Source: Leclercia adecarboxylata
Lineage (GTDB): Bacteria; Pseudomonadota; Gammaproteobacteria; Enterobacterales; Enterobacteriaceae
Assembly (NCBI GenBank): GCA_002360945.1
Contig: DERO01000005.1
Location: forward strand, 44,523-108,522
Direction of reading: 5' to 3'
DNA: 64,000 nt
The notes beneath the pieces are model-generated. The model worked only from the letters and a program-made list of their open reading frames with translations. It was not told the DNA's origin and did no database searches. The position numbers and the translations under genes were made by a program. Shown piece after piece: positions 16,318-31,941 of the stretch; position 1 is the stretch's first letter; the number at the start of each line of letters is the position of its first letter.

Positions 16318-16725
16318 GTGAGGTTGCGTGAAAGTGTAGGGAAGATCCTTATGTCTGCAGTTGTGTTCAGTCTAGCGGCAGGTTGTGCACCGTTACATCC
16401 TGCTGCATGTCATAAAACTACCGCAATGGGTAACTGCAGTTCTGGCCGCTGGGACGATCAGGATGAATGGGGTGCGCAGGCGCGGGGTATTAAGGCTGCA
16501 ATAGAAGATAAAATTGCTGAGCCACATCGCTGGAAGGGCAAAAAATGCCGGCTGCATATGGAATTTGCACAGGATGGTACGGCTTTGAAGATATCAACCA
16601 GCAAGGGCAACAAAGAGTATTGCGAGGCGGTGAAACTGGCGGCCCAAAAAGCGAAGTTCCCGGCGTTTAGTAATCCAGAGGTGTATCGGGATTTTCAAAA
16701 GGTTGGGTTTGATATGCAGGGTTAG
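16318..16725 (+). CDS. Lipoprotein with a TolA C-terminal-like domain
   Basis: 135 aa from a GTG start with GGGAG seven bases upstream. The N-terminus is a lipoprotein signal ending LAAGC (Cys23 as lipid acceptor, Ala at +2, so outer-membrane sorting is likely). Residues about 55-133 resemble the periplasmic domain III of TolA: AIEDKIAEPHRWKGKKCRLH corresponds to the TolA segment around its first cysteine, and YCEAVKLAAQKAKFP to the second. The two cysteines are positioned as in TolA. TolA's coiled-coil region and membrane helix are missing, so this is a free-standing domain, not TolA itself. Role unknown. The assignment is from remembered TolA sequence. Confidence 0.75.
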   Translation: MRLRESVGKILMSAVVFSLAAGCAPLHPAACHKTTAMGNCSSGRWDDQDEWGAQARGIKAAIEDKIAEPHRWKGKKCRLHMEFAQDGTALKISTSKGNKEYCEAVKLAAQKAKFPAFSNPEVYRDFQKVGFDMQG

Positions 16726-16930
16726 CCAGGGAATTATTGTATGGGCTGCTTTGTGCCAAGAGCGGACGTTGTTAATCTCAGACTGAGTAAGTTAATCGAA
16801 CACAGGCCAATACGGAAAATTGTTTACCAACGCACGAAGCTCAGTTTAATCTCGTGTTTTGACAGTATTACTAATAACAAATAGGGCTGCAGCCCCTTTC
16901 AAGGTTGAATGCCCAACATAAGGAAGGGTT

Positions 16931-17740
16931 ATGCTGCCTGATCATTTAAAAGGTTTAAATTTAAGGCCGTCAGGTTTGAAAACTGTTGAAGGCCGTACAA
17001 TAAATATTTGGGAGTTTTCACCCCCAACCGATCCGGCTCTTCTTGACAGCTGGGCACTACATTTTCGCCGACAATACTGTTCAGACCATGAGCTTCCGGA
17101 ACTCTTGTGCGGGACGGGGATGACGGCCGAACAGTATTTGAATGCATACATTTTTCCCGACAGAACTAAGTCACCCGGACCTTCTATTCGTTCGGGTGAC
17201 TTCGCTGAATTTCTCATTTCCGATTACTTGGAGTTCATGCTTAATCTCTGGGTCCCTCGGGAAAAATACGCTGAAAAGGCAAGCAACAACGAATCTGTCA
17301 AGGGTGTGGATATAATAGGCTTCCATCAACTGGATGCTGCAATTCCCACTGCGAGAGATGCCCTCTATGCCTTTGAAGTTAAAGCGTCACTTTCGGGAAG
17401 TAACTATGGCGGCCAGCTGCAGAATGCGGTCAACGATGGATCTAACGATCAGCACATAAGGCTGGCTGTCACTTTAAACGCTACCAAACGCAGATTCCTT
17501 CGCGAAGGGGAAGCACTGGAAGTGAGCCGGATCTCACGTTTTCAGAATCCAGCAGATAACCCTTATACCTACTTGTCCGGTGCGGTTGCTGTTCTCTGCA
17601 ATACCGCATTCAATGAAGAGGAACTTGCTAAAACTCTCGCCAACGATCACTCGAATGCTGCAGCCCTTTACCTGATGGTTGTACGCTCTGACCTTCAGAT
17701 GCAACTGGTTCATGAGCTTTATGAGAGGGCTTGCAAATGA
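16931..17740 (+). CDS. hamA: Hachiman anti-phage protein HamA (DUF1837 nuclease)
   Basis: 269 aa. It has the DUF1837 pattern of a PD-(D/E)XK nuclease: SGDFAE (Glu93), VKGVDIIGFH (Asp127) and YAFEVKAS (Glu149, Lys151). In characterised Hachiman systems HamA is a nuclease held inactive by the helicase HamB; detection of damaged or altered DNA releases it and DNA is degraded, stopping phage growth. The stop overlaps the ATG of the helicase gene (ATGA), the standard two-gene Hachiman arrangement. The start ATG has AAGGAAGG upstream. Codon use is AT-richer than the hyc genes, consistent with transfer. Confidence 0.88.
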   Translation: MLPDHLKGLNLRPSGLKTVEGRTINIWEFSPPTDPALLDSWALHFRRQYCSDHELPELLCGTGMTAEQYLNAYIFPDRTKSPGPSIRSGDFAEFLISDYLEFMLNLWVPREKYAEKASNNESVKGVDIIGFHQLDAAIPTARDALYAFEVKASLSGSNYGGQLQNAVNDGSNDQHIRLAVTLNATKRRFLREGEALEVSRISRFQNPADNPYTYLSGAVAVLCNTAFNEEELAKTLANDHSNAAALYLMVVRSDLQMQLVHELYERACK

Positions 17741-20700
17741 AGGCCGGATTCAACAGCAAGCGCCTGTTTGGTATAACCCGTTCAAAAGGCAAGATGTACG
17801 AATTTGGTCTGGATGAGTCTCAGCATCTCAAGGTGCCTGAAGGTTCAGATCCACTACAGCTGTTTGTGATGACTGTAGCCACCCTGGGCGACGTGACCGG
17901 AGTGCTTGCTGATCTGTCCAATCCGCTAACTCCCCTTCCCCCTGAAACGCAGACAGAACTCAATTTTTGCGCCAGCTTTTTTGACGCCGTTCTTGATTCA
18001 GGATTTGCGCAGGGTCTGGAAAGAACAACATTACTTTTAGCGTCTGCCGCCTATTATATAGCCCGTCGGCCAGGTAGTAGCTTAGTCCTCGCCCGTCGAA
18101 TTGAATACAGACCAGAAAGCAACAAAGTTGAACACTTTCTGCAATGGCTCCTCAAAGCAGATTTTAGAAACTACTGGCGTCTGGACGATAAAGGTTATGG
18201 ATCGTTGCTTAATTTGATATCACATCATATTGTAACGCATTTTTCTGGAGGGGGCCTACAGCAGCTTATTGAAAGCTTGCTGAAAACTCTTCGCAATAAA
18301 GCTTATAAAATGGGTACCGCTGAGGAGTTACTTTATGCAGATGTCGCCATATCGGTTTGCCGTATGCGGCTTGCCGCATCTGCGTGGTCAACCCTTCCAC
18401 AGTATTCAGGCTTATCTGCAGAGTACTGGCGACCGGTCATTCAGAGAGGACGCTTTCCAAAAGAACTCTGGCCCTCTCAGCTTCTTTTAGGTACCAGAGG
18501 GATCTACAGTGGAGCCTCAGGTCTGATTCAGATGCCTACAAGTGCCGGTAAAACGAGGTCGATTGAGTTAGTCCTGCGAAGTGCATTTATGTCCGCACGA
18601 ACCAGGCTTGCGGTGGTAGTCGCGCCCTTCCGGGCACTTTGCCAAGAAATAGCTTTATCACTGCAGCAGGATCTTGCCGGTGATGACATTAAAGTCAATG
18701 AGCTGACGGATGCTCTGCAAATCGACTTCGTGGAGCAAATTGCAGAACTGCTGGGAAGCGCTCCGCCCTCAACACCGAATGTATTAGTCCTTACACCAGA
18801 AAAGTTTCTCTATGTCCTGCGCCAGTCATCTAAGGTTTTGAAACATGTTGGGCTTGTAGTTTACGACGAGGGTCACCAGTTCGATACCGGTGGGAGAGGT
18901 ATAACGTATGAGTTGTTGCTTACTGAAATCAAGGGATTGTTGCCTGATACTGCCCAAACTTTGCTTATTTCTGCTGTTATGCAAAACCCGCAGGCGGTTG
19001 CACGCTGGCTGATGGGACCGTATAAGGCACAGGTTGTAGACGGCGCAACGCTATTACCCACAAGCCGGTCTGTTGCTTTTGCAAGCTGGACTGAGTCGCT
19101 CGGGCAGTTAATGTTTCATGAAAATGGCTATGACAAAGAAGACTACTTTGTTCCAAGAGTAATAGAACCAGCTCAGCTCAAAGACATTAAAGCTGACAGT
19201 GCGCTGTTTCCGACCCGCGCGAAATCGAGCGACGTATCACTCTATCTGGGGCTGCGGGTTGTCGGTAAAGGTTCCGTTGCCATTTTCTGCGGGACAAAGT
19301 TAATTGCAAACGGTATAGCAAAAAGGGCAGTAGAGATTGCCGATGCGGGATACACCACCGTATGGCCTTCTGCCTACGCAGATTCTGAAGAAGTCAGTGC
19401 ACTGAAAACGCTTATCGAAGGTAACTTCGGAAGCGACGCTCTTCTTTTAAAAGCCGCTGAGCTGGGCATATATACACATCACAGTAATACACCCCAAGGT
19501 ATTCGCCTGGCACTCGAACACGGAATGCAGAAAGGGCTCATTAATTTTATTGCATGCACATCCACCCTCGCTCAGGGAGTTAATCTGCCTATTCGTTATC
19601 TTATTGTGCAGGGTGTTAATCAGGGGGCAGGGCGTGTAAAAGTTCGCGACTTCCAAAATCTGATAGGGCGTGCTGGTCGCGCCGGAATGCACACTGAGGG
19701 CGTTGTTATCTTCGCTGATTCAACTGTATGGGACAGAAGAAAAAGCTGGCAGGAATCATGGAAATTCCAAAACGCCGTTGAACTACTGTCGCCTGAAAGC
19801 GCAGAAGGCGTTACTAGCTCTCTGCTCTTATTGTTGAAACCTTTTACTCTCTCACGCATCCATGTATTCCCCTTTACTGGAGGATATCTGCTGGACTTGA
19901 TGGACAATGAGACGGAGTGGCAACGATGGGCTCAGCAATTGGCAGATTCAGTACCTCGCCTTACTAAGGAAAAAAAGGATGCTCTGGTCAAAGCGCTACT
20001 AGTATCTCTGACAGACCGTAAAAAGATGACGCATACGCTTGAAAGCTATCTGATGGCAAACTGTACATCCACAGATATCGCTACTTTTGAACAAAGGGCC
20101 GGCGAACTTGCACGCGAGACTCTGGCATACTCGCTAGCCTCTACAGATGAAGCAGACAAACTGGAAGATTATTTCCGGCTGGTCGCCAGACGCATTGAGT
20201 CGGTTGAGAGCTCGCCTGTTAAACAGGCATTCTTCGGCAAGACATTGCTGGGTGCAAAACAGACTAAACGCATAGAGACATGGTCGGACGAGCACAAAGA
20301 CATGCTATTAACGCTAGATTCCAATGATGAATGGCTCACTGCCGTATGGCCACTTTTGGCTGAACTCAGTGACAGCCGTTTTTTCCGTAGTGTCGAGCCT
20401 GATAATGCGGGTTTCAAGCTCGCACTCTTATGGATAGACGGATCTAGCTATGGAGAGATATTCAGAAAAGCGTTGCAGATGCAGGTTAAAAAGAAAGTCG
20501 GCAAGCGCAAATATAAGGTGAGCAACGACGATATTCTCCAGTTTCTGGAGAGCAAGCTGGCATTTGATTGCACGCTCATTCTGGCAGCTCTCGCGCAATT
20601 CATTTTTTCCCCAGAGGAAATTGTCGGGGAGCGGGGAGCATCGCTCGCGCATTTTCAGAAGAGCCTGAAATATGGCCTTCCGGATACACTGTCTATGAGT

Positions 20701-20877
20701 GTGTTTGAAGCGGGATTTGCTGACCGTTATATTTCACAAGCTGTTCGTGATGCTCTACTACAGGATGAATATGAAGGCAGCTCCTTTGATGAAGCCCGAA
20801 AGAGCCATCCGAGCGCCATTGAGTATGTTATCCGGGCTACCCCAGCCTATTTTAAGTATGTTTTAAGTTCAGAGTGA
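17737..20877 (+). CDS. hamB: Hachiman anti-phage helicase HamB
   Basis: Superfamily 2 helicase, 1046 aa from the ATG at 17737, which overlaps the hamA stop; a TTG two codons earlier is less likely. Motifs: Walker A QMPTSAGKTRS (about 265-274), motif Ia VVVAPFRALCQE, Walker B YDEGH (377-380), motif III LISAVMQNP, motif IV-V TSTLAQGVNLP and motif VI LIGRAGRAG (about 642-650). This is the Ski2/Brr2-like set. About 260 residues precede the helicase core and about 370 follow it. With HamA it forms a complete, apparently intact Hachiman module; no third gene is tightly linked. Confidence 0.88.
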   Translation: MKAGFNSKRLFGITRSKGKMYEFGLDESQHLKVPEGSDPLQLFVMTVATLGDVTGVLADLSNPLTPLPPETQTELNFCASFFDAVLDSGFAQGLERTTLLLASAAYYIARRPGSSLVLARRIEYRPESNKVEHFLQWLLKADFRNYWRLDDKGYGSLLNLISHHIVTHFSGGGLQQLIESLLKTLRNKAYKMGTAEELLYADVAISVCRMRLAASAWSTLPQYSGLSAEYWRPVIQRGRFPKELWPSQLLLGTRGIYSGASGLIQMPTSAGKTRSIELVLRSAFMSARTRLAVVVAPFRALCQEIALSLQQDLAGDDIKVNELTDALQIDFVEQIAELLGSAPPSTPNVLVLTPEKFLYVLRQSSKVLKHVGLVVYDEGHQFDTGGRGITYELLLTEIKGLLPDTAQTLLISAVMQNPQAVARWLMGPYKAQVVDGATLLPTSRSVAFASWTESLGQLMFHENGYDKEDYFVPRVIEPAQLKDIKADSALFPTRAKSSDVSLYLGLRVVGKGSVAIFCGTKLIANGIAKRAVEIADAGYTTVWPSAYADSEEVSALKTLIEGNFGSDALLLKAAELGIYTHHSNTPQGIRLALEHGMQKGLINFIACTSTLAQGVNLPIRYLIVQGVNQGAGRVKVRDFQNLIGRAGRAGMHTEGVVIFADSTVWDRRKSWQESWKFQNAVELLSPESAEGVTSSLLLLLKPFTLSRIHVFPFTGGYLLDLMDNETEWQRWAQQLADSVPRLTKEKKDALVKALLVSLTDRKKMTHTLESYLMANCTSTDIATFEQRAGELARETLAYSLASTDEADKLEDYFRLVARRIESVESSPVKQAFFGKTLLGAKQTKRIETWSDEHKDMLLTLDSNDEWLTAVWPLLAELSDSRFFRSVEPDNAGFKLALLWIDGSSYGEIFRKALQMQVKKKVGKRKYKVSNDDILQFLESKLAFDCTLILAALAQFIFSPEEIVGERGASLAHFQKSLKYGLPDTLSMSVFEAGFADRYISQAVRDALLQDEYEGSSFDEARKSHPSAIEYVIRATPAYFKYVLSSE

Positions 20878-21301
20878 GGCCTGTCGGGCTCACTGCAAAG
20901 CAAGAGCCACGCATGCTGAGGCGATAAATTAGTTAGAAAAACCTCGTTAGTACTGAGGTTTAGGCTGAAATCGCTTCGTCTTAATGACGGAACATGTTCG
21001 CAGTACTGTAGTAATTACCTGTAACTTTCACTTAATATGGGATGCTTGATAATAACCGGCTCCGCTAGCATGATGTACAACAACCGGCGAGAGTACGGCA
21101 CTGCTCGAATTCTCAACATGCTAAAAAATACGTTATCGATTAAGTACATGAATCAACAAATACCCACTCCAATAAAATTTGAGTCTACTGGTAACTTTTT
21201 GACTAAAACACTTTAGAATGAAACTTCCCTCAAAGTTATGGTGGCTATGAAAGGCATAATAGACAATTACTTAGATAAATCTAGATAAATCTGGTCGAAC
21301 T
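20878..21301. other. Intergenic AT-rich region after hamB
   Basis: 424 bp without a credible gene. The only structure seen is an imperfect hairpin with 7-bp arms AAACCTC/GAGGTTT (20939-20945 and 20955-20961). It lacks a T-run in the hamB direction; the T-run is on the other strand. No IS end, tRNA or attachment repeat was recognised. Confidence 0.5.
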
Positions 21302-21874
21302 ATGCTGGCAGCATGTTTTACCTTTGATAATGCTCGAGCGGCAGAAAAAATGGCGGACTGGCATTGTGTTGGTGAAGATAATGAAGCTTGGAAGAATGGT
21401 CCATATTTATCAGCGGGTGCATACCAGAAGCAAATCGATCGTAGATATCCTTATTGTTTTAGATCTAGCGATGAGTTCGGTATAGTTGCAGGAATAATAT
21501 TGGGTTCTAATCCTGCAAAAAATAAAAATGGCGGCGTGCAAACTCCTATGTCCCCTAAGGGCTTGAATGAATCAAGAGTCGAACCAGTAATATCTAAACT
21601 AGCAATCATTGAACAGTTTGCATTATTCAAAGAATTTTTAATGACATTTGATGGGCCATTTAATAAGAAAAAATGTAAAGCTTGAAAGGGGGGTATCGAA
21701 GAAGATACCCTTAATTTGCTTACTGAGCTAACAAACAGACGAAATGAGTTGACACATGATTCTGAACATGCACTTTCGTCTATGAAAGAAGCTGTAGCAT
21801 ATTTTTATCAGTTGCGCCAGTTAGCACCCAAGCTTTATGAGTGCTCCTCGCATCAGTCTCCGGCTGATAAATAA
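21302..21874 (+). pseudogene. HEPN-like gene interrupted by an in-frame TGA
   Basis: An open frame of 127 codons (start ATG 21302, MLAACFTFDN) ends at TGA 21683-21685. The same frame then stays open for another 62 codons to TAA 21872-21874. The downstream part contains LLTELTNRRNELTHD, an R-x4-H motif of HEPN RNase domains, followed by helix-like AVAYFYQLRQLAPKLYE. The upstream part has the helix-like KLAIIEQFALFKEFL. Read together they look like one ~190-residue HEPN-type protein broken by one stop. Alternatives: a 127-aa protein with unrelated coding-like DNA behind it, or a recoded stop. The N-terminus has no match I recognise. Confidence 0.45.
21691..21710 (+). other. Hairpin directly after the in-frame TGA
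   Basis: GGGTATC and GATACCC form a perfect 7-bp stem around a GAAGAA loop, starting five bases after the TGA at 21683-21685. It could be a weak terminator (TTAATTT follows) or a recoding element. It does not resemble the fdhF SECIS at 37934 in loop sequence. Confidence 0.5.
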
Positions 21875-21966
21875 TATTGAATTTTTTATGTGCGACTGTT
21901 CAAAAATCGCACATGAATAAACTCAAAAGAATATAAAGCACTTCATACTAAAATCCAACTTGGTTG

Positions 21967-22923
21967 CTAAAAAAAACATTTCATTGCTTTTATGTTTATT
22001 TCACAACAACTGTATACTTCATTTGATGTGTAGCCACCAAAACCATTTAACTCAAATATGCCAAGTGAAATTATATAAGCGCAGAGCATTGAAAAGTAAT
22101 AACCTTCATATCTACTAATATCGGATTTACTGGTTCGAAATGGGCTTAATGTTGAACCGTGAGCCCTCTCATTTCTAACGTTATACAATATAACAGATGT
22201 AATGAATTCGCACTTTTTATTGAGTGCGAAATGGTTGCTATCATTGGATAGATCTAGTAACGGAAAAGCTGGATTTTTAGTTTTAGTGCCTTTTTGACCT
22301 TTAAGTATCATCATCAAAAATTTTGCAGCTCTTAACAAGTTATCACTATCTAGAGCGACTGAAATTGAAAACACACCGTTAGAATCACAAGCAAACTTTT
22401 TAATAAATTCTTCATATTGGCCTGAGTGGAAACAATTCCTTGCTCTTTTTGCCAGCCTAGACTTGTTATCTTTATCATTTACTATGCGCTGAGCCTCGGA
22501 TTCAAATATCCTTTTTGTGATATAACGACTTGTTAATACTGGAATATTACAGGCAAGTAATTCAATTATAGCCCCCCAGTGGTTATTAGGTAAGTTGAGC
22601 AATTTATTACCCACCCCCTGTACAATCCCTTTAAGTCCGCCTTGGGTGGAAAATAGTCTTTTTCCAGCTTCATCAATTACTTTAAAACAGTGATCAAACA
22701 TATAGTCTGGTCTAAAAGGCAAAAACTCAAGACCATCTCCTAAATGCCCAATGCATGTTTGAAATGTGATATCCTCATTATAAGCCATTTTTATGGGAGT
22801 GAAAGGTGCTGCTCCATGGTTTTTATCAATTAGCGCCTTAAATTTTTCTTCTGTTATAAATAAAACTCTATTGGGAAAATCGTTGTGGCAGTCTACGCGC
22901 GCTTTTTTATAATCGAAACTCAT
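21967..22923 (-). CDS. HEPN-like protein, candidate defence RNase
   Basis: 318 aa from the ATG that follows GGAG (MSFDYKKARV); an upstream ATG would add 18 residues without a good ribosome site. I do not recognise the family. The C-terminal part holds ILYNVRNERAHGS (Arg250-x4-His255), the catalytic signature of HEPN RNases, within predicted helices, then the hydrophobic YYFSMLCAYIISLGIFEL. The ~230-residue N-terminal region is unassigned. The gene is AT-rich, points toward the broken HEPN gene and lies 1.1 kb from hamB. A defence or toxin role is an inference from motif plus location. Confidence 0.6.
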   Translation of the reverse strand: MSFDYKKARVDCHNDFPNRVLFITEEKFKALIDKNHGAAPFTPIKMAYNEDITFQTCIGHLGDGLEFLPFRPDYMFDHCFKVIDEAGKRLFSTQGGLKGIVQGVGNKLLNLPNNHWGAIIELLACNIPVLTSRYITKRIFESEAQRIVNDKDNKSRLAKRARNCFHSGQYEEFIKKFACDSNGVFSISVALDSDNLLRAAKFLMMILKGQKGTKTKNPAFPLLDLSNDSNHFALNKKCEFITSVILYNVRNERAHGSTLSPFRTSKSDISRYEGYYFSMLCAYIISLGIFELNGFGGYTSNEVYSCCEINIKAMKCFF

Positions 22924-23105
22924 CTCAATCTCCATATATCTTATATAAAAACCAGTAACTCTCGTTAGTAATGACAAGCTTAAAATAACACTTTAATTTT
23001 AGCTACATGGTTTGTAAAGCAGCATTTATAAGCATCCTGCCAAAACGAACCATTCTATTTTAGAGATCTTCCGACATACTGATTATGTCTCTTCAGGAGA
23101 TGGTC

Positions 23106-23170
23106 ATGCGCAAAGCCCGATTCACCAAACACCAGATCATTGCCGTTTTTAAGTCTGTCGAAGCCTGCAG
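23106..23170 (+). pseudogene. IS3-family transposase OrfA remnant
   Basis: From ATG 23106, after CAGGAGA, the frame reads MRKARFTKHQIIAVFKSVEA, the typical beginning of IS3-family (IS407-like) OrfA transposases. Similarity stops after about 21 codons and unrelated sequence follows. No OrfB is present. It shows that an insertion sequence once sat here and was mostly deleted. The surrounding gap 22924-23484 has no other gene I can support. Confidence 0.75.
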
Positions 23171-23452
23171 CACCAGTTTCCAGCATTACTCGATGTTTGG
23201 GGTAAACGCTGATGATCTTACCTCACTGCAGAGGGTTCCTAATCTGCTCCCAGTTGATTAAAACACGATAATGTTAGTAATTCCTCAATCAACTGGGGAA
23301 AACAATTACAAACGTCCGCTTCTCGCTCATAGAAGACCTTTGTCCTACCCGTCAAGTGCCGTGAGTATATTTTGCGAGCGTATGGATACACTAGATACCT
23401 AAAGGCTCTTGAGCAGACCTACAAACATTGTCTGTCGCTTGGGTTGAGCATA

Positions 23453-23482
23453 AAATACCCATTTAATTTTATGTGGGTATTT
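23453..23482 (+). other. Hairpin over the DUF3800 translation start region
   Basis: AAATACCCA (23453-23461) and TGGGTATTT (23474-23482) are perfect 9-bp inverted arms around a 12-nt AT loop, ending two bases before the ATG at 23485. If transcribed it would hide the GGGT ribosome-site region of the downstream gene. Confidence 0.55.
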
Positions 23483-23484
23483 GT

Positions 23485-24255
23485 ATGGAATACGTGGCTT
23501 TTGGTGATGAGAGTGGTACGACAGGGAGTGACCGCTGTTATGGCATTGGTTTGCTGTGTGTGCGTAAAGACACATTGCACATCTTCAATGAGCGCGTCCA
23601 GAAATTGAAAGATAAGTACGGGATTGTCGGTGAGTTGAAGTGGTCCAAGATTAAGAACAGTGCAGGGCAGGCAAACATCTGCATTGAGCTGCTAGCTATG
23701 GTGCTCAAGAACTCGTGCTGCTTCCACTCGATTGTTGTAGTTAAGAATTTTTACAACAACTGGCAGACGGACAGGGAGTTGGCTTTCTACCAGACTTACA
23801 CAATGCTCGTTAAGAACGTTGCTAAACAGATTAAGAGTGACGTTGAGGTGATCATCGACCAGAAGATTGATAAATACAAAAAGAACGATGAAGTGACAGG
23901 TATTGTTGCTAACAACATGCTGGCTAGGGCAGGAATGAAGAAGCTGGTTAAGTCTGTGACGATGCACGACTCTAAGCATCATCTTGGATTACAGGTTGTC
24001 GATATTCTGACCGGAGCTGTTAACTCTGGGTACTTGAAGTATCTTAATCCTCGCTTGGAACTATCAGTGGCTAAGGAGCTTGCCTTTGAACGTATTGCTG
24101 CTCTGCTTGGCTGGGATCTATTCCATTACGATACATTCCCGAATAAGGATTTTAATATCTGGCATTTTCCGCAAGAGATGCGAGCTATGCCGGGTTCAAA
24201 GAGTATTCGACCTGATTACAGCGTTCCATTGGTTAAGCGGGAAGAGCTGTCCTAA
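23485..24255 (+). CDS. DUF3800 domain protein (RNase H-like fold)
   Basis: 256 aa from ATG 23485 (MEYVAFGDESG); an upstream GTG at 23473 is less likely. The DUF3800 pattern is complete: FGDESG (Asp8), GELKWSK (Glu50), VEVIIDQK (Asp125) and LGLQVVDILTGA (Asp173), the acidic residues of an RNase H-like fold. The biochemical role of the family is poorly known, but members occur often in mobile and defence regions. It stands alone with the IS scrap upstream and a hairpin across its start. A nuclease function is inferred from the fold. Confidence 0.8.
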   Translation: MEYVAFGDESGTTGSDRCYGIGLLCVRKDTLHIFNERVQKLKDKYGIVGELKWSKIKNSAGQANICIELLAMVLKNSCCFHSIVVVKNFYNNWQTDRELAFYQTYTMLVKNVAKQIKSDVEVIIDQKIDKYKKNDEVTGIVANNMLARAGMKKLVKSVTMHDSKHHLGLQVVDILTGAVNSGYLKYLNPRLELSVAKELAFERIAALLGWDLFHYDTFPNKDFNIWHFPQEMRAMPGSKSIRPDYSVPLVKREELS

Positions 24256-24551
24256 CCTTGACTTCAAAAATCGATTGTTTATGCATAGGCCGACCAAATT
24301 TAAAGGATAGGTGTCAATCGATACTGTAGTGGTGCACTAAATTTGGCCACTGGAACAAATATGTAAAGGTGCGTTATTCGCTCTTAACAGATATCCATTG
24401 TTTCCCATACGTAACAAACAATATTGACAGCTTATAAAAAATCGAACACCAGCCCCCCCAACGCCACCCCATCCTCAAACGCATTCAGGGGCCTGCCACA
24501 GCCCCTTATCAAACCTGAAATCAGTCAGCCTTCACCGACTTCCAGCCGCAC
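24256..24551. other. Intergenic region with a possible IS end
   Basis: 296 bp without a gene. The words TGGTGCACTAAATTTGG at 24333-24349 look like an IS3-family terminal sequence. No transposase or partner end was found, so this is weak. Confidence 0.3.
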
Positions 24552-25010
24552 TCAATGCACCGTAATATACGGCTCCTTCACAAACTCATTAACCAGCCAG
24601 ACCAGATCGTGCAGCAACCCCGCCAGTTCTTTCTCGATACTTACGGGCAAGGTTCCACCCAGAATTGCCTGCACCAAAGCCAGCGCGTAATCCACCTGCG
24701 GGGCGGTTTCCTGCCAGCAGTCCGGCATACAGGAGGTGAGGGTTTCCCCCTGGATCAACTGCGCGATAAGGTGCGGCGGGAGTTCGGCATCACAGCGTTC
24801 ACGCAGCTGGTGCAGCGCGTGCAGCAGACCTTCGCAGAGCGCAGTGCGGGATGCTCTGTCGTCAGTTTCGATCAATACGCTCACCAGCGCGGCGCAGCGA
24901 TCGGCGACCTCAAAGAGATCCGCAGCAGCAGAAAGCGGCGTAGTCAGGGAAGGGGGAATAACCTGTTCGTCAGATTGCGGATAAGTCAGGGTTGGGATAG
25001 TAGTCATCAT
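24552..25010 (-). CDS. Conserved hypothetical protein, possibly prophage-derived
   Basis: 152 aa, starting MMTTIPTLTYPQSDEQ after GAGAGGA. It is acidic, rich in Leu/Ala and probably all helical (RERCDAELPPHLIAQLIQG; ELAGLLHDLVWLVNEFVKEP). There is no signal peptide, membrane segment or catalytic motif. GC content is higher than in the neighbours, so it may have another origin. The upstream DNA (25044-25175) resembles leader segments of P4-like satellite prophages, which suggests prophage ancestry. I do not recognise a function. Confidence 0.6.
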   Translation of the reverse strand: MMTTIPTLTYPQSDEQVIPPSLTTPLSAAADLFEVADRCAALVSVLIETDDRASRTALCEGLLHALHQLRERCDAELPPHLIAQLIQGETLTSCMPDCWQETAPQVDYALALVQAILGGTLPVSIEKELAGLLHDLVWLVNEFVKEPYITVH

Positions 25011-25043: not shown

Positions 25044-25175
25044 CTAAAAGTTCCTACGCTCAAAGGAGGCAGCACTGACGGAGGTAGGAATGCCGCCCAC
25101 AGAGAAAAACGGCCAGCCTTTCGGCTGCTCCGCCAGTGCCACCGTGATTTTACGGGATATGCACTGTCGCGACAT
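25044..25175 (-). CDS. Small ORF resembling P4-like prophage leader peptides
   Basis: 43 codons beginning MSRQCISRKI and containing PKGWPFFSVGGIPTSV, ending ERRNF just upstream of the 152-aa gene on the same strand. The wording recalls short leader or Ash/Icd-type ORFs of P4-like satellite phages, from memory only. The remainder of 25176-25605 shows no gene I can support. Confidence 0.3.
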   Translation of the reverse strand: MSRQCISRKITVALAEQPKGWPFFSVGGIPTSVSAASFERRNF

Positions 25176-25605
25176 ACAAATATTGCTCTGTAGAATACGG
25201 GTTCCTACACCCGATTGCGGATGTGCCGCAACGCAGTCACTTTACGAGCCTGATAACGGGAATAAAAGCCTTAACCCTGAATTACATAAGGTTACTTTGA
25301 AGTTTGCGAGGAGCTTTCCAGAAAAGCAGTGCTGGGGGCGCTTCGCTTGCACGGCCTACAATGCTAATAGTACGTTTTTTTATGAAAATGATATTCCGCC
25401 TTTTCAACACCAGCAGCGGAAATATAAAACTATCATCTTTACTTATGTCGATGACCGCACCTATAAATTCTATAGCTATTATACAGGGTATTTAGATGTT
25501 CTCTTATAAGCATAATACTTGCTAAATGTGATTTGCTTATTTACTCATCAACTCTCACCTCTTATAATTGCCTTTGTTACTTAAGCTAAATTGCCAGGAG
25601 AGGCT

Positions 25606-26295
25606 ATGAATTATAACAATGACGTTATTAGCTATTTACAAGCAAACAATATTCTTGCGTTAAAGCTCGATCGTGCACTAACAGGCGTTAGAGAAATGGT
25701 TTCCAGCCAGATAGAAACCATAGGCGCAGGTGCTAAACGTGCCCTTTATTACACCTCCTGTTTTACTGATGATTATCAGGATGTTTGTAGAAACCAAAAG
25801 AATGAAGATATTCGTTTTGCAAATGGCGTTGTTCACGTCTTTCAGAACAATGATATTGCTTATGAAATGCTGCGTATTTATTTCGAGCAGATATTTCAGT
25901 ACAAAACGTCAGAACAGTTAGAGAATATCAAGCGTAAGTTAATGGCGGTCAACGTTCATATTGCCGCAAGCTCTCTCACCAACGCCGGATTCGCGCTAGC
26001 GGTCGCTTATTGTGTGGCTATTGGAATGAACTTACGTCTCGAAATGAGTGCTTTGGTCGGCGGTAAGACCAGAGGGGTTGTTGCCGTTGCGGGTATCTAT
26101 GGAATCGTTCAGAAAGCAGCTGACAGTGCGCAACGTCTGAAATATGTCTATCCAGACTATTACGCAGCATTGTACTCACGGGAACTTGAAATGATGTATT
26201 TCCTGGTAGAACCATTATTTGAACGAGCCGGAGCATTCCCTCATTCAACATCGGATAGTGACATAGCGGATCTCATCACTAAGATGAGTAGATAA
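25606..26295 (+). CDS. Unknown protein upstream of hcp
   Basis: 229 aa from ATG 25606, preceded by AGGAGAGG. The first ~110 residues look helical and polar. Residues about 120-175 contain two apolar, glycine/alanine-rich stretches (LTNAGFALAVAYCVAIGM and VVAVAGIYGIVQKAADSA) that could insert into a membrane. The C-terminus is polar and helical. No family is recognised. It is followed 2 bp later by a 49-codon membrane ORF and then by hcp, so the three genes may form an operon. A secreted effector or an immunity/adaptor role is possible; neither is shown. Confidence 0.65.
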   Translation: MNYNNDVISYLQANNILALKLDRALTGVREMVSSQIETIGAGAKRALYYTSCFTDDYQDVCRNQKNEDIRFANGVVHVFQNNDIAYEMLRIYFEQIFQYKTSEQLENIKRKLMAVNVHIAASSLTNAGFALAVAYCVAIGMNLRLEMSALVGGKTRGVVAVAGIYGIVQKAADSAQRLKYVYPDYYAALYSRELEMMYFLVEPLFERAGAFPHSTSDSDIADLITKMSR

Positions 26296-26297
26296 TC

Positions 26298-26447
26298 ATG
26301 ACTAATATTATATACAGGATATTCAGACGGATATTTAAGTCTTTGCTCTCCGACTATGGTCCGTCCATATTAACAATATTATTCGCATTCGCATTCTTAC
26401 ATTTTTTCCCAAATGGTCCTTTATGGCCTATACCTGTGTTTTTTTAG
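26298..26447 (+). CDS. Small membrane protein (49 aa)
   Basis: ATG 26298 starts 2 bp after the preceding gene's stop. The sequence begins MTNIIYRIFRRIFKSLL (basic, amphipathic) and continues with one hydrophobic segment, SILTILFAFAFLHFFP, ending PVFF. That is a single-span, N-in inner-membrane topology. It has no named family. Its position between the 229-aa gene and hcp suggests an accessory or immunity peptide. Confidence 0.5.
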   Translation: MTNIIYRIFRRIFKSLLSDYGPSILTILFAFAFLHFFPNGPLWPIPVFF

Positions 26448-26510
26448 TGGTTTTGATTTTTATTAAATGGTAATCCAATCTTTTTTTTATTGAAATAATA
26501 AGGACGTTAT

Positions 26511-26990
26511 ATGTCTACACCCGCACATTTATGGCTTGAAGATGAAAATGGTTCTCCAGTTGTAGGAGGCTGTATAATGCCGTTACGGTTAGGCTCAATT
26601 GAGCTTAAGTCGTTCTCCCACGGTGTCACTATTCCGGTAGATCCGAACCTGGGAAAGCTTACTGGAACGCGTGTCCATCGTCCCATCACTATAGTAAAAG
26701 AGTTCGATCGCACCACGCCTCTTCTTTATCGTGCAGTATGTGAAGGAAGAACGATGAAGAAAGCCACCATTAAGATGTACCGAATCCTTGATTCAGGTAT
26801 AGAGGCTGAGTACTTCAATATTATTCTGGAGAATGTGAAATTCACTACTGTTGCACCCTATCTGGCTCCGAACGGAATGAGTAGCACGCATCTTGAAACG
26901 CTGGAGTTACGTTATGAGGCGATCACATGGAAATACACGGATGGGAATATTATCTACCGTGACTCATGGAATGATCGATGCTTTGGGTGA
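26511..26990 (+). CDS. hcp: Hcp-family type VI secretion tube protein/effector carrier
   Basis: 159 aa beginning MSTPAHLWLEDENGSPVVGG. The Hcp fold is evident from the order of strands: GSIELKSFSHGV, TGTRVHRPITIVKEFDRTTPLL, and the C-terminal LETLELRYEAITWKYTDGN that ends Hcp1/TssD proteins. There is no C-terminal toxin extension. No other T6SS structural gene (tssB, tssC, tssM, clpV, vgrG) is in the window, so this is an orphan copy that would depend on a T6SS elsewhere. Its upstream companions may be cargo. Confidence 0.85.
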   Translation: MSTPAHLWLEDENGSPVVGGCIMPLRLGSIELKSFSHGVTIPVDPNLGKLTGTRVHRPITIVKEFDRTTPLLYRAVCEGRTMKKATIKMYRILDSGIEAEYFNIILENVKFTTVAPYLAPNGMSSTHLETLELRYEAITWKYTDGNIIYRDSWNDRCFG

Positions 26991-27140
26991 ATAGCCATTA
27001 ACGCCTTGAATATTGGACCAAATCGCCAGCACAAGCCTGGTAATAACAAAACTAAAAACAGCTTCATAAAGGAAGATTTCGTCCCCTTTAATAAACCCTT
27101 TAGTTCTGTTGGCCTGTGCTGGCGCGACCTGGTCTTCCCC

Positions 27141-30100
27141 TTATCCGATCAGAACAAAATCATTCATATCGATGCTGTTAGCCTTCACGTTTTCTAACGT
27201 AATGACATTGCCATTAGCAGGGTTGCCGAGGGTAATCAGGGTACTGTTACCAGCTCCCCCGGCAATGGTGATGCTGCTGGCAAAATTCGCCACGCTGATG
27301 CCCAGTGAACTCAGATCGAGGTAGTCCTGTCCGCCGCTGGGATTACTGTCGAAGCCGTTGGTAATACGGTCTCGCCCAAAGCCTGCGCTAAAGACGAAGG
27401 TGTCATTTCCCGTACCACCGGTCAGGATATCGTCACCCTGGCCGCCCTCGAGTCGGTCGTTACCCGCTCCGCCCGTCAGTTTATCGTTACCGGCCCCGCC
27501 CTGAAGAGTATCGGCACCGTCACCCCCATCAAGGGCGTCATTTCCTGCCCCACCGTTCAGCTGGTCGTTTCCTCCCATCCCATACAAAGCATCATTACCG
27601 CTGCCGCCGGTGATGGTGTTGGCAATGGCATTTCCTCTGCCGGTGAAAGCGCCGGTCCCGGTAAACACCAGGGTTTCAATGCTGGTGGTCAAGGTGTAAT
27701 TATTGAGAGTGGTCTGGACAACATCATTCGTCCCGCTATTCAGATCTTCCTTGACGATATCCTTCGCATTATCAACCAGATAAATATCGTCTCCGGAACC
27801 CCCTGTCATGGTATCGGCACCCTGGCCACCCTCGAGCCTGTCGTTACCCGCTCCGCCTGTCAGTTTATCGCTACCGGCTCCGCCCTGAAGATTATCGGCA
27901 CCGTCACCCCCATCAAGGGAGTCATTACCGCTGCCACCGGTGATGGAGTTGGCAAGGGCATTCCCTTTGCCGGTGAAAGCGCCTGTCCCGGTGAACACCA
28001 GGTTTTCAACGTTAGTGGTCAGGGTGTAAGTGTTGAGAGTGGTCTGGACAACATCCGTTCCGCCATTAAGCGCTTCTGTGACGATATCGCCCTTATTATC
28101 AACAATATAGGTATCATTGCCGAGACCACCCGCCATCACATCGGCGCCCGTGCCGCCGTTGAGGATATCGTTGCCGGCACCACCGTTGAGCGTGTCGTTG
28201 CCGCCCCCACCGTTCAGGACGTCGTGGCCGATCCCGCCATTGAGAATGTCATTGCCGTTCCCGCCATTCAGGACGAGGTTGTTGTTGGCTACGACCGGCG
28301 GTTTATCGAGCTGACTCGTCCCGAAGATGTTCTCGGGAAGATTGGTCAGGCCCGTGTTGCGTGCCACGATCGCAGCAAAGCCCTGCTCCTCGAGGACGTC
28401 GTAGAAGTCCAGATGCTCCACGCGATCGATATAATACAGCCGGTCACCTTCCTGGATGCGGTCAAGTTGCTCGTGGATGATGACCCAGAAGGTCTGGCCC
28501 ACCACACCGCCATTGATGTGCTTCTCGGCAAGTCCGCCCACGAACAGATCCACTCTGTCGATGCCTTTGACGGTGTTTCCGTTAACAAATTGATAGCCAG
28601 GGTTGGCCGCGAGGAAGTCTGCAATCTGAGCATCTTCCAGCACGAGGTCTGGATAGGCCTGCTTAAATTGCGCAATGACGGTATCGCTGAGATTGTTCCG
28701 GGTCTGGAAGTCCTCCCATGAACTGTAGGGGGTGAGATCGCCGGCAAAGCTGACCGCCTCCTTCACATAGGGATCAAGAGAGGCCATCAGGTCGGCCCGG
28801 ATCTGGTTCATCGAACCCAGACCGACATCCCACTCGCGGGCGACGTCGAAAGCGAACACGTCAGCACTCATACGAACCAGGTCGTTTCGCACAGCATCAA
28901 CGAGATTGACGTCGACTTCTTCCGCCGCCTGGACAACACCACCGGCAATGATCCCGGCGGCACCCAGTTGCTCATAGCCTGGCTGTGGAGAGTAGGGCAG
29001 CTGCGCTTTAGGGAAATTGAATGCGCTCGTATCGTTGGTCGGGTTAAGGAACGCGTCGAACAGCGGTACCTGCGTTGCATTGCCCTGAGCGTCGAGCACC
29101 GTCAGCGTCTGCCCTATCATCGAATGACCGAACCGGTAAGCGGCAACCGCGAACTCGTGCGAGACGCGTGCATCCACGTCCGGGTTGTACTCGACGAAGC
29201 CGTGATTGCCGTCACCTCTCATGCCACCCAGCAACTTGTCGGCGAAGTCGGTGTAAATAACGCGCTGATATTCAGCCTCGTTGATGATCTTGGCAGCCTG
29301 GAACAGCTCTTCAGCGGTTCCAACAAATCCGGCGTCGAGCAATCCGTTGACATGGAAGTTGTGATTCCGCGCCCAGATGTTGTGGACCGCAGTGAGGGCG
29401 ATGTTCTCGTTCGCCCGCCCATCACCCGCCACGTAGTGGTCGAGCAGGTTGATAAAGGGGTTGGTGTCGAGCAGCAGCGCAAAGCCACTTCCCATGAAAT
29501 TAGCGGTCATGGCAGGGAGCATCGACGAGTTGATCACGCCATTGCTGTCGACCAGTCCGGCGTAGTACTCCTGGAAGGTCACGTTGTGATCGCCCGGCAG
29601 CGAGCTGTCGGTGAACAGCGTGTTGTTGTTCCAGTGATGCAGGATCAGTTCCCTCAGCGTGGGCAGCAGTTTGAAATTGGGATTTGAGGGATCCAGTCCG
29701 CCCTCCAGCAGTTTGCCCGTAAACCCGCCCAGTCCGTCGCCTTCGCGCAGGAACTGGCCGACGAGTTCGTTCGAGCCATAGGTTTGGTTCTGGTCAGCGA
29801 AGGGCGATGTCTTATTGAGATGCTGCGGGATGCCATTGGCATCAATGCTGTCAACGGTGCCGCGAGTCAGGTCCGCAGGATTGGGCACCGAGCCCGGAGT
29901 GCCAATCTGGATGGTTCCGCTACCGCCCTTGCCGAGGAAATCGAGACCGTGATCGAAGTACTGACCGAAGGCCGTGAACAAGCTGTTCACGCCGGCGGCG
30001 TTGCCAGAAAGGTTTGCTTCCTGTGTACCAAGGGCATCGCTGATGGCACGTGGATCCAGCCCGGAGAACAGGGGGTTGATGTCGCGGTTGTGCGTCGTCT

Positions 30101-30698
30101 CATTGTAAGCGCCGTAGTGCGCGTCGGTGAGTCGTATGAACGGCTGATCGGCCGAACCATAGTCAAGGTGAACACGGTTATTGCCGGTGCCTTCGAGATC
30201 GCGGATCCCGAGAGCATCGTTGTCTTCACCGCCTTCAAGCCCGTTGACGAGATTCTTCAGGTTGGCGACATCACTTGCGGTGAGCGGGAAGGCGCCATCG
30301 CCGCCGACATCGTCATCACCGCTGGCATTGTCATCCGCCGACGTTTTCTTGCTCGCTAAGATAAGCGGTTCGGGAGCTGTGTTCACTTCAACGTTGGTTA
30401 AGACGTTGGCGGTCTGGTTACGGATAATCCCTGACGGCGGAGCGATAGCCGACCCTGTCCCGGCGTATTCCGCTTTAAACGAGGGATCAAACACGCGCTG
30501 GAAGGAATGATCTGTCGTACCAAACTTATCCTGTCGTGTGACCAGGTTACTTAATCCAACATCCAGGGGACTTGTAGCGAATGGCACCAGCCGGTTGGAG
30601 AGTATATTGAAGTAAACTCCGTCGACAAACGCTTGAGTTATTGCGTTTTGCTGGAGGCTAAATTTCAGATCGGGCTTTTTGACATTGTTCATGTTCAT
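27141..30698 (-). CDS. RTX-repeat animal-type haem peroxidase
   Basis: 1185 aa. Residues about 180-780 are an animal-type haem peroxidase: FGQYFDHGLDF (distal His, about 237-247), the IWARNHNFHVNGL helix and AAYRFGHSMIGQTL (proximal His, about 520-525). Residues about 800-1115 are RTX calcium-binding nonapeptides (GGNGNDILNGG type) interleaved with TYIVDN-like and GTGAFTGKGNAxAN blocks. There is no Sec signal, so export by a type I system through the C-terminal end is expected; none is encoded here. Close relatives in alphaproteobacteria and Pseudomonas (MopA) oxidise Mn(II). It is GC-richer than the adjoining hcp region. It faces hcp tail to tail with a 150-bp gap and no obvious terminator. 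Confidence 0.88.
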   Translation of the reverse strand: MNMNNVKKPDLKFSLQQNAITQAFVDGVYFNILSNRLVPFATSPLDVGLSNLVTRQDKFGTTDHSFQRVFDPSFKAEYAGTGSAIAPPSGIIRNQTANVLTNVEVNTAPEPLILASKKTSADDNASGDDDVGGDGAFPLTASDVANLKNLVNGLEGGEDNDALGIRDLEGTGNNRVHLDYGSADQPFIRLTDAHYGAYNETTHNRDINPLFSGLDPRAISDALGTQEANLSGNAAGVNSLFTAFGQYFDHGLDFLGKGGSGTIQIGTPGSVPNPADLTRGTVDSIDANGIPQHLNKTSPFADQNQTYGSNELVGQFLREGDGLGGFTGKLLEGGLDPSNPNFKLLPTLRELILHHWNNNTLFTDSSLPGDHNVTFQEYYAGLVDSNGVINSSMLPAMTANFMGSGFALLLDTNPFINLLDHYVAGDGRANENIALTAVHNIWARNHNFHVNGLLDAGFVGTAEELFQAAKIINEAEYQRVIYTDFADKLLGGMRGDGNHGFVEYNPDVDARVSHEFAVAAYRFGHSMIGQTLTVLDAQGNATQVPLFDAFLNPTNDTSAFNFPKAQLPYSPQPGYEQLGAAGIIAGGVVQAAEEVDVNLVDAVRNDLVRMSADVFAFDVAREWDVGLGSMNQIRADLMASLDPYVKEAVSFAGDLTPYSSWEDFQTRNNLSDTVIAQFKQAYPDLVLEDAQIADFLAANPGYQFVNGNTVKGIDRVDLFVGGLAEKHINGGVVGQTFWVIIHEQLDRIQEGDRLYYIDRVEHLDFYDVLEEQGFAAIVARNTGLTNLPENIFGTSQLDKPPVVANNNLVLNGGNGNDILNGGIGHDVLNGGGGNDTLNGGAGNDILNGGTGADVMAGGLGNDTYIVDNKGDIVTEALNGGTDVVQTTLNTYTLTTNVENLVFTGTGAFTGKGNALANSITGGSGNDSLDGGDGADNLQGGAGSDKLTGGAGNDRLEGGQGADTMTGGSGDDIYLVDNAKDIVKEDLNSGTNDVVQTTLNNYTLTTSIETLVFTGTGAFTGRGNAIANTITGGSGNDALYGMGGNDQLNGGAGNDALDGGDGADTLQGGAGNDKLTGGAGNDRLEGGQGDDILTGGTGNDTFVFSAGFGRDRITNGFDSNPSGGQDYLDLSSLGISVANFASSITIAGGAGNSTLITLGNPANGNVITLENVKANSIDMNDFVLIG
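27400..28285 (-). repeat. RTX nonapeptide repeat region with internal duplication
   Basis: Within the peroxidase gene, glycine/aspartate nonapeptides (GGxGxDxLx) occur in three blocks: about 28110-28285, 27840-27960 and 27400-27600. Between them lie two near-identical ~60-codon modules containing GNDTYIVDN or GDDIYLVDN, then TTLNxYTLTTxxExLVFTG. The modules differ by few substitutions, which suggests recent tandem duplication. Confidence 0.85.
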
Positions 30699-31355: not shown

Positions 31356-31901
31356 ATGAACCGTTTCATCATCGCCGATGCCAGCAAATGCATCGGCTGT
31401 CGTACCTGTGAAGTAGCCTGCGTGGTGTCACACCACGATACCCAGGACTGCGCGTCGCTGACCCCGCAGAACTTCCTGCCGCGCATTCACGTCATCAAAG
31501 GCGTCAACGTTTCCACGGCGACCATGTGCCGCCAGTGCGAAGACGCCCCTTGCGCCACCGTCTGCCCGAACGGGGCCATCACCCGCGACAACGACTTTGT
31601 TCACGTCCACCAGGAGCGCTGCATCGGGTGCAAAACCTGCGTCGTCGCCTGCCCGTACGGCGCGATGGAAGTGGTGCTGCGTCCGGTTGTGCGCAGCATC
31701 GGTGCCGGGCTGAACGTGATGTCGGAAAAGGCCGAGGCCAACAAGTGCGACCTCTGCTACCACCAACCGGACGGCCCCGCCTGCATTCAGGCCTGCCCGA
31801 CCAATGCCATCGTCTGCATCGATCGCAAGAAGCTTGAGCAGTTGAGTCTCGATAAACGCCGTCGTGCGGCGCTGGACTCCGTTTCCTCGCAGATGCTGTA
31901 A
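31356..31901 (+). CDS. hydN: Iron-sulfur electron carrier HydN
   Basis: 181 aa (E. coli about 175), starting MNRFIIADASKCIGCRTCE after a good ribosome site (TTAAGGATG). It has four [4Fe-4S] clusters: CIGCRTCEVAC, CRQCEDAPCATVC, CIGCKTCVVAC and CDLC...CIQAC. It is a HycB paralogue linked to formate dehydrogenase H activity. Here it directly precedes an fdhF paralogue, which supports a role as the electron partner of that enzyme. Confidence 0.94.
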   Translation: MNRFIIADASKCIGCRTCEVACVVSHHDTQDCASLTPQNFLPRIHVIKGVNVSTATMCRQCEDAPCATVCPNGAITRDNDFVHVHQERCIGCKTCVVACPYGAMEVVLRPVVRSIGAGLNVMSEKAEANKCDLCYHQPDGPACIQACPTNAIVCIDRKKLEQLSLDKRRRAALDSVSSQML

Positions 31902-31941
31902 GCCTCTGCCTTTCTTTTCACTTTTAGCAGGTCTGTTACTG

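Follow-up and report, generated by a model that had tools for sequence, protein, structure and literature searches.

Does the interval between hycI and hydN in Leclercia adecarboxylata hold a complete anti-phage system, and is it a place where such systems are exchanged? We examined a window of 64,000 nucleotides (assembly GCA_002360945.1, contig DERO01000005.1, positions 44,523 to 108,522 of the forward strand), in which an initial annotation, made from the letters alone, had read positions 16,931 to 20,877 as an intact Hachiman defence system comprising the nuclease HamA and the helicase HamB. That annotation also suggested that the interval, occupied by asc genes in Escherichia coli, may be a hotspot for defence genes. 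The Hachiman identity is confirmed, and the system as such is ordinary, one more natural copy of a known one. Taken as a whole, the locus is very probably an intact HamA1/HamB1-type Hachiman system with an ECOR31-like mechanism, carried as a mobile cassette in a cargo-swapping slot within hycI–hydN (Table 1). This setting matters more than the Hachiman genes themselves: it is a compact slot in which six known kinds of defence system replace each other.

The hamAB operon and its expected mechanism

The best PADLOC model for HamA is HamA1 (PDLC00161; 1.6e-97, residues 3–269 of 269), and that for HamB is HamB1 (PDLC00188; 1,224 bits, residues 1–1044 of 1046). The initial annotation had let its case depend on a match to DUF1837; this Pfam family, renamed HamA, matches the 269-amino-acid protein with 28.7 bits against a cut-off of 25. 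HamB has Pfam DEAD and Helicase_C domains and aligns with the solved protein 8vx9_B (phmmer, 2.5e-35), and the SF2 motif set claimed for it can be located: PTSAGKT at residue 267, DEGH at 377 and GRAGRAG at 644, with D377 aligning with D431 of ECOR31 HamB. As expected of Hachiman, the gene for this SF2 (Ski2-like) helicase adjoins hamA; its preferred start is the ATG within the ATGA overlap with the hamA stop, which is present in the sequence as first reported.

The proposed HamA nuclease residues are kept in almost all of 115 homologues taken from the protein database, one of them nearly identical to the query: E93 in 115, D127 in 113, E149 in 114 and K151 in 115. The D-E(X)K nuclease residues are present, a profile search aligns them to E138/K140, and the protein is predicted to adopt the Hachiman HamA fold. 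Neither reading frame is interrupted, and both the overlap and the catalytic residues have been preserved, in agreement with the annotated intactness. Gene identity, conserved residues and the predicted HamA fold all have direct support.

Some results weigh against parts of this assignment. A single-sequence phmmer search of HamA against the Protein Data Bank (PDB) found no match, whereas the profile search did find the link, so that the step from this HamA to the solved one is carried by the profile and fold links; in the structural alignment the two are 14% identical. The published interface motif, (R/K)XX(R/K), occurs three times in HamA (188, 200 and 266), and the interface therefore cannot be placed at any one of them. 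No outstanding promoter was found, positions 16,700–21,300 holding 3 promoter-like sites against 5.4 expected. The source genome has a single HamA match; a 99-genome set of relatives that contains it yielded no HamA in its other 98 members.

As set out in the accessible part of the ECOR31 study (PMC12278908), HamB restrains HamA as long as the DNA is intact; when a free single-stranded end enters HamB, ATP is hydrolysed, HamA is activated, and phage and host DNA are degraded. Because the catalytic residues are conserved and the predicted fold agrees, this mechanism is the best reading for the present hamAB; activity, triggering and the route by which the cassette moves are points that we infer. 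HamB, as an SF2 helicase, would keep the nuclease HamA inactive while surveying intact DNA, until it met damaged DNA, such as a free single-stranded end, of the kind that may arise in phage replication. ATP hydrolysis by HamB would then activate HamA, whose non-specific cutting would destroy phage and host DNA and so end the infection. The operon itself would be a mobile cassette in the slot between a TolA-like gene and a gene for a 152-amino-acid protein that lies behind a C4 antisense RNA, inside hycI–hydN.

The cassette is seen in three contexts. DNA 84% identical to hamAB is present in Pantoea sp. alder81 (matching window positions 16,748–20,954) and in a viral contig (16,761–20,904); from our reading of the open reading frames (ORFs) by eye, the Pantoea copy lies in a region resembling an integrative and conjugative element (ICE), with conjugative genes, and the viral-contig copy is prophage-like, with lambdoid genes. 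HamA matched 13 plasmid records, every one at less than 60% identity, and nothing in the phage collection.

Could the locus be a relic of island traffic, derived from Hachiman and no longer serving defence? The absence of HamA from all 98 other relatives searched would fit, as would a same-species genome outside the 99-genome set (G099), whose hycI–hydN interval lacks HamA and whose slot holds only an insertion-element-like ORF; from the latter, slot cargo seems easily lost. Against this stand the open frames, overlap and catalytic residues described above and the intact copies on other replicons, which make a relic very improbable, and we keep to the reading of an intact system.

The slot within the hycI–hydN interval

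In E. coli K-12, ascG, ascF and ascB lie between hydN and hycI, and at least 80% of this arrangement is found in one place in 4,648 of 5,426 E. coli genomes, which bears out what was first said of that species; the 778 genomes with lower coverage were left unassigned. Of 60 E. coli rows listed, asc is present in 51; another 8 contain 21% of the query and further small genes, and the last is an unrelated match to a plasmid. In the one of these 8 that was examined, E. coli JJ1886 (L232), small ORFs that include a helix-turn-helix protein replace asc between hydN and hycI, and two further listed rows name a HigB toxin there.

Within the window's own GTDB genus (61 genomes), HydN was found in 60 and HycI in 58 of the 60 genomes searched. 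The interval was taken from 56 genomes besides the window and searched for the Asc proteins and for genes of the window, giving 57 of 61 genomes resolved (left out were G015, at a contig end, G027 and G046, with no HycI match, and G059, outside the draw). AscG, AscF and AscB match in all 45 examined genomes outside the window's lineage, with an AscB match covering only 65% in G049 and Hcp-type genes in addition to asc in G048. They match in 0 of the 12 genomes of that lineage (the window and 11 others), which we call Leclercia-like because of the names of homologues of the 152-amino-acid protein. One of the 12, G055, has a HydN match of 77%; it was assigned to this group on the basis of HycI (93%) together with the frame genes.

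When the window is aligned with these 11 relatives (blastn), homology stops at 16,770–16,780 in 6 of 11 and restarts at 24,365–24,389 in 8 of 11. The slot thus delimited holds a recognised defence system in 7 of the 12 lineage genomes, of six kinds. Besides Hachiman in the window, these are a CBASS cyclase with a 4TM effector (G019, and G035, whose CBASS genes were identified by their 96.7% and 89.0% identity to those of G019 and not by PADLOC), an RT-Toprim retron-type protein (G031), IetA with IetS (G045), Shedu (G032), and Septu PtuA with PtuB, PtuA being split across two frames (G055). Elsewhere the slot contains the PADLOC candidates PDC-S47 and helical REase (G053), only a weak PADLOC match to Hp1 (G036), no recognised defence system (G038), arsenic-type genes as judged by eye (G051) or, in G099, an insertion-element ORF alone, with an IS1222 frameshift element. 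The same flanking core genes therefore enclose differing defence systems among 12 related genomes, as in a defence hotspot. The swapped cargo and the edges common to most relatives are observed directly, and a slot with swapped defence cargo is well supported for the Leclercia-like lineage. The suggested hotspot finds support in this lineage, and none for the Enterobacteriaceae at large, given the asc genes in 45 of 45 other members of the genus and in most E. coli.

It might be argued that hycI–hydN is a permissive, neutral insertion site, no richer in defence genes in this lineage than any other variable site. That three of the 12 slots are filled by arsenic-type genes, an insertion-element ORF or an unrecognised gene, that G036 has only its weak match, and that a second variable stretch on the right carries, in some genomes, Hcp and a haem peroxidase would all be expected of such a site. 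Six kinds of recognised system in 7 of 12 genomes, with PADLOC candidates in one more, would not, nor would edges that coincide to within 10 bp on the left (6 of 11 relatives) and 24 bp on the right (8 of 11). We regard a neutral site as rather unlikely and prefer a slot with swapped defence cargo.

Because six known kinds of defence system swap in this slot, the unnamed genes found in the same place are candidates for new systems. Such candidate defence genes include unnamed ORFs in G038, G036, G053 and G032 (loci L036, L038, L040 and L044), among them DUF4062 and NA37 proteins. In the window, the 322-amino-acid HEPN-type protein is, judging from its sequence, a possible second defence gene of the slot: among 67 homologues R254 is kept in 66 and H259 in 65, and one homologue is named Apea-like HEPN. 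G031 carries the DUF3800 gene, at 97% identity, in its own hycI–hydN interval, and a 127-amino-acid ORF of the window's slot gave no matches.

The C4 RNA beside the right frame gene and the PHROG match of the left one raise the possibility of a phage origin of the frame. The C4-linked 152-amino-acid protein has no Pfam or PHROG match, and of 13 stretches in viral contigs that matched the pattern for its gene, 0 were confirmed. ARAGORN found no tRNA in the window, and we therefore have no tRNA integration site to propose; no integrase was found among the slot ORFs (by eye, and with Pfam on those of at least 127 amino acids). The C4 RNA also occurs in the intervals of 9 of 11 relatives and in 4 of 5 other scanned loci with the 152-amino-acid ORF family, which has several copies in many genomes.

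To the right, the second variable stretch runs from the 152-amino-acid ORF to hydN (25,591–30,698); some relatives carry a 234-amino-acid ORF and an orphan Hcp there, and the window and G053 a large haem-peroxidase/RTX protein. An fdhF-like gene pair is found at 31,864–34,092 and 37,517–39,664: the gene with cysteine adjoins hydN, and the other has an in-frame TGA (37,934–37,936) at the place of selenocysteine.

A dispersed repeat at the slot edges

The slot edges of the window carry the two halves of a dispersed repeat. The whole repeat is 66 bp long and folds into three hairpins: half B (a 24-bp hairpin), an 18-bp spacer with a small hairpin, and half A (a 24-bp hairpin); 21 whole copies were found in the scanned loci. 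The A pattern, allowing at most 2 mismatches, was found in 57 of 60 genus members and in 2 of 39 other genomes of the order, and a reversed control occurs 0 or 1 times per strand and genome. The 66-bp repeat is present in 326 of 72,556 plasmid records, in 2 phage-collection records (one of them a phage in which it precedes the tail sheath gene, flanked by two hypothetical genes) and in 1,464 of 5,426 E. coli genomes, median once, and thus behaves as accessory DNA in E. coli. Rfam gave no match at the window's repeat halves (E up to 0.1) or, at gathering scores, at repeats in 16 loci. The loci with repeats (the window, L092–L110, L284–L297, L001 and L278) include chromosomes, plasmids, an ICE-like region and phage DNA.

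The repeat is intergenic and oriented. Only 2 of 46 A halves lie inside ORFs of at least 130 amino acids, although 77% of that DNA is coding. Neighbouring copies within 15 kb have the same orientation in 45 of 47 pairs (one-sided binomial, 8e-12), as against 24 of 45 for farther neighbours; these counts are from positions among the matches listed, with lone copies on a contig excluded, second halves collapsed and one same-orientation pair in G017 uncounted. At the slot, half A (at most 5 mismatches) is found at the left edge in 7 of the 10 genomes where it could be located and half B at the right edge in 7 of 11, compared with 1.2% and 1.7% of random 90-bp stretches, and both edges carry their half in 6 of 12 genomes. 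In the Leclercia-like chromosome, half A thus bounds the slot with hamAB on its left side and half B on its right, and in the ICE-like region of Pantoea hamAB is enclosed by A (9,818) and B (14,064); in the prophage-like contig, B follows 3' of hamB (9,097) and the left side showed no A.

Module borders were also compared between arrays. A locus with a SulP gene was chosen since L094, L095 and L108 had repeats and common genes at that place, and 16 of 19 genomes were used for it (G030, G036 and G040 were dropped for a partial gene or a contig end). DNA shared by G024 and G056 starts at the first base of A in both, that of G036 and G050 starts 11–12 bp ahead of A, and that of G050 and G020 starts 3 bp ahead of B. 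Several cases count against a repeat at every edge or border. Half A is missing at the left slot edge in L035, L040 and L045 (L038 and L043 not being locatable), and half B at the right edge in L035, L039, L043 and L045 (L040 not being locatable). Shared DNA starts 60 bp past the start of A in G018/G056 and 20 bp past the end of A in G003/G024, of which G003 alone has a copy; in G024/G022, G050/G002 and G036/G002 the start lies near an A that is present in one partner only; and in G056/G020 the shared end is 23 bp beyond B. In sum, the repeat is a genuine element, dispersed and oriented, and it is found at many module borders.

Genes of several kinds adjoin it. In E. coli, DRT1 and HEC-08 genes (L302), a PD-T7-1 gene (L300) and, in another opened locus, annotated restriction endonucleases stand beside the repeat. 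At further loci, and on plasmids and within arrays, its neighbours are metabolic or transport genes. PADLOC on ten proteins, nine beside E. coli or phage copies and one from L094 (those of L298, L299 and L301 were left out), gave 5 strong matches, 2 weak ones (LeoBC, 1.2e-9; PDC-M04A, 7e-4) and 3 proteins without a match. Because the six E. coli loci were hand-picked from 25 listed rows of 1,467 records and the scan covered ten proteins, the presence of defence genes beside the repeat is to be read as a pattern and not as a rate. We had considered the A half at 16,744 as a defence-specific attachment site, and dropped this, the repeat being dispersed and also present between metabolic genes. 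A 603-bp integrase/tyrosine recombinase gene is annotated within about 4.2 kb of the repeat in 4 of the 6 opened E. coli loci (a set that includes L298–L302); a longer integrase lies 4.4 kb away in a fifth, and none is in the stretch of the sixth.

The repeat may drive the exchange of cassettes, or it may do no more than mark their borders. We lean slightly towards an ordinary intergenic repeat of the repetitive extragenic palindrome/bacterial interspersed mosaic element (REP/BIME) kind, or a terminator, unrelated to the movement of cargo and found at borders since only borders tolerate it. Its intergenic position, its three hairpins and its occurrence, on chromosomes and on plasmids, between metabolic and regulatory genes of an ordinary kind are consistent with this, and in only three comparisons does shared DNA begin within 12 bp of a half common to both arrays, the others being 9–60 bp off, one-sided or confined to an end. 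Less easily accommodated are the shared orientation of close neighbours, the start at exactly the first base of A in both G024 and G056, and the presence of the repeat in little more than a quarter of the E. coli genomes, median once. The other possibility, which we hold to be unlikely, is that the repeat is a recombination junction delimiting oriented arrays of exchangeable cassettes of one to few genes across Enterobacterales, Hachiman being one such cassette, with defence and metabolic modules swapped one for one by a recombinase acting on hairpin DNA or by homologous recombination from one repeat to another. Were this true, the repeat would provide a sequence handle for defence cassettes outside phages, ICEs and integrons, and the movement of chromosomal defence genes would become directly testable.

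Table 1. Features of the hamAB locus and its slot (window positions)
Feature	Position	Strand	Basis or detail
Left frame gene, TolA C-terminal-like, lipoprotein-like start	16318..16725	+	Pfam TolA 2.5e-14; phrog_5772 184 bits
Repeat half A, left slot edge	16744..16767	+	2 mismatches to GTCCGCTNNGTGCCANNAGCGGAC
Variable cargo slot: hamAB, small ORF, HEPN-type protein, DUF3800 protein	16775..24375	.	blastn; edges approximate
hamA, Hachiman effector nuclease, PD-(D/E)XK, 269 aa	16931..17740	+	E93, D127, E149, K151
ATGA overlap, hamA stop/hamB start	17737..17740	+	Sequence
hamB, Hachiman sensor SF2 helicase, 1046 aa	17737..20877	+	PADLOC, Pfam, phmmer, motifs
HEPN-type protein, R-x4-H, 322 aa	21967..22935	-	Homologues
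DUF3800 protein, PADLOC candidate PDC-M04A	23473..24255	+	PADLOC, Pfam
Repeat half B, degenerate, right slot edge	24369..24392	+	5 mismatches
Right frame gene, 152-aa ORF, multi-copy family, behind C4 antisense RNA	24552..25010	-	
C4 antisense RNA (RF01695)	25062..25149	-	63.4 bits, gathering 45

Comparison with known systems

The solved ECOR31 HamAB (PDB 8VX9), as far as the accessible text of PMC12278908 describes it, differs from the present system in the length of HamB (1,174 amino acids against 1,046 here), in a HamA of the low identity given above and in its setting. In 8ZUE, an E. coli Hachiman/anti-bacteriophage structure, chain A has 531 amino acids, about twice the length of HamA here, and the sequence match is much weaker. 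The closest named homologues come from other hosts: HamA of Klebsiella variicola (P0002) and Pantoea ananatis (P0005), each 88% identical over the full length, bear the Hachiman name in NCBI and UniRef, respectively.

The slot resembles the hotspots described for the E. coli pan-genome and for P2/P4 phages, in so far as the accessible parts of PMC10121019 and PMC9122126 present them, in its fixed position and swapped defence cargo; its frame of a TolA-like gene and a C4-RNA/152-amino-acid gene is unlike theirs. The terms hyc, hyd, asc and hypF are absent from the main text of PMC10121019, supplements aside. Literature searches on hycI or hydN with defence terms did not meet the slot among the matches listed, and word searches gave, among the papers listed, no description of the 66-bp repeat, although one under another name may exist.

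REP/BIME-type elements are short, palindromic, intergenic, dispersed repeats with an associated RAYT transposase, and the 66-bp repeat is itself short, palindromic, intergenic and dispersed. Integron cassette arrays are defined by an integron integrase and attC sites; the repeat arrays described here resemble them in layout, as oriented repeats between short gene modules.

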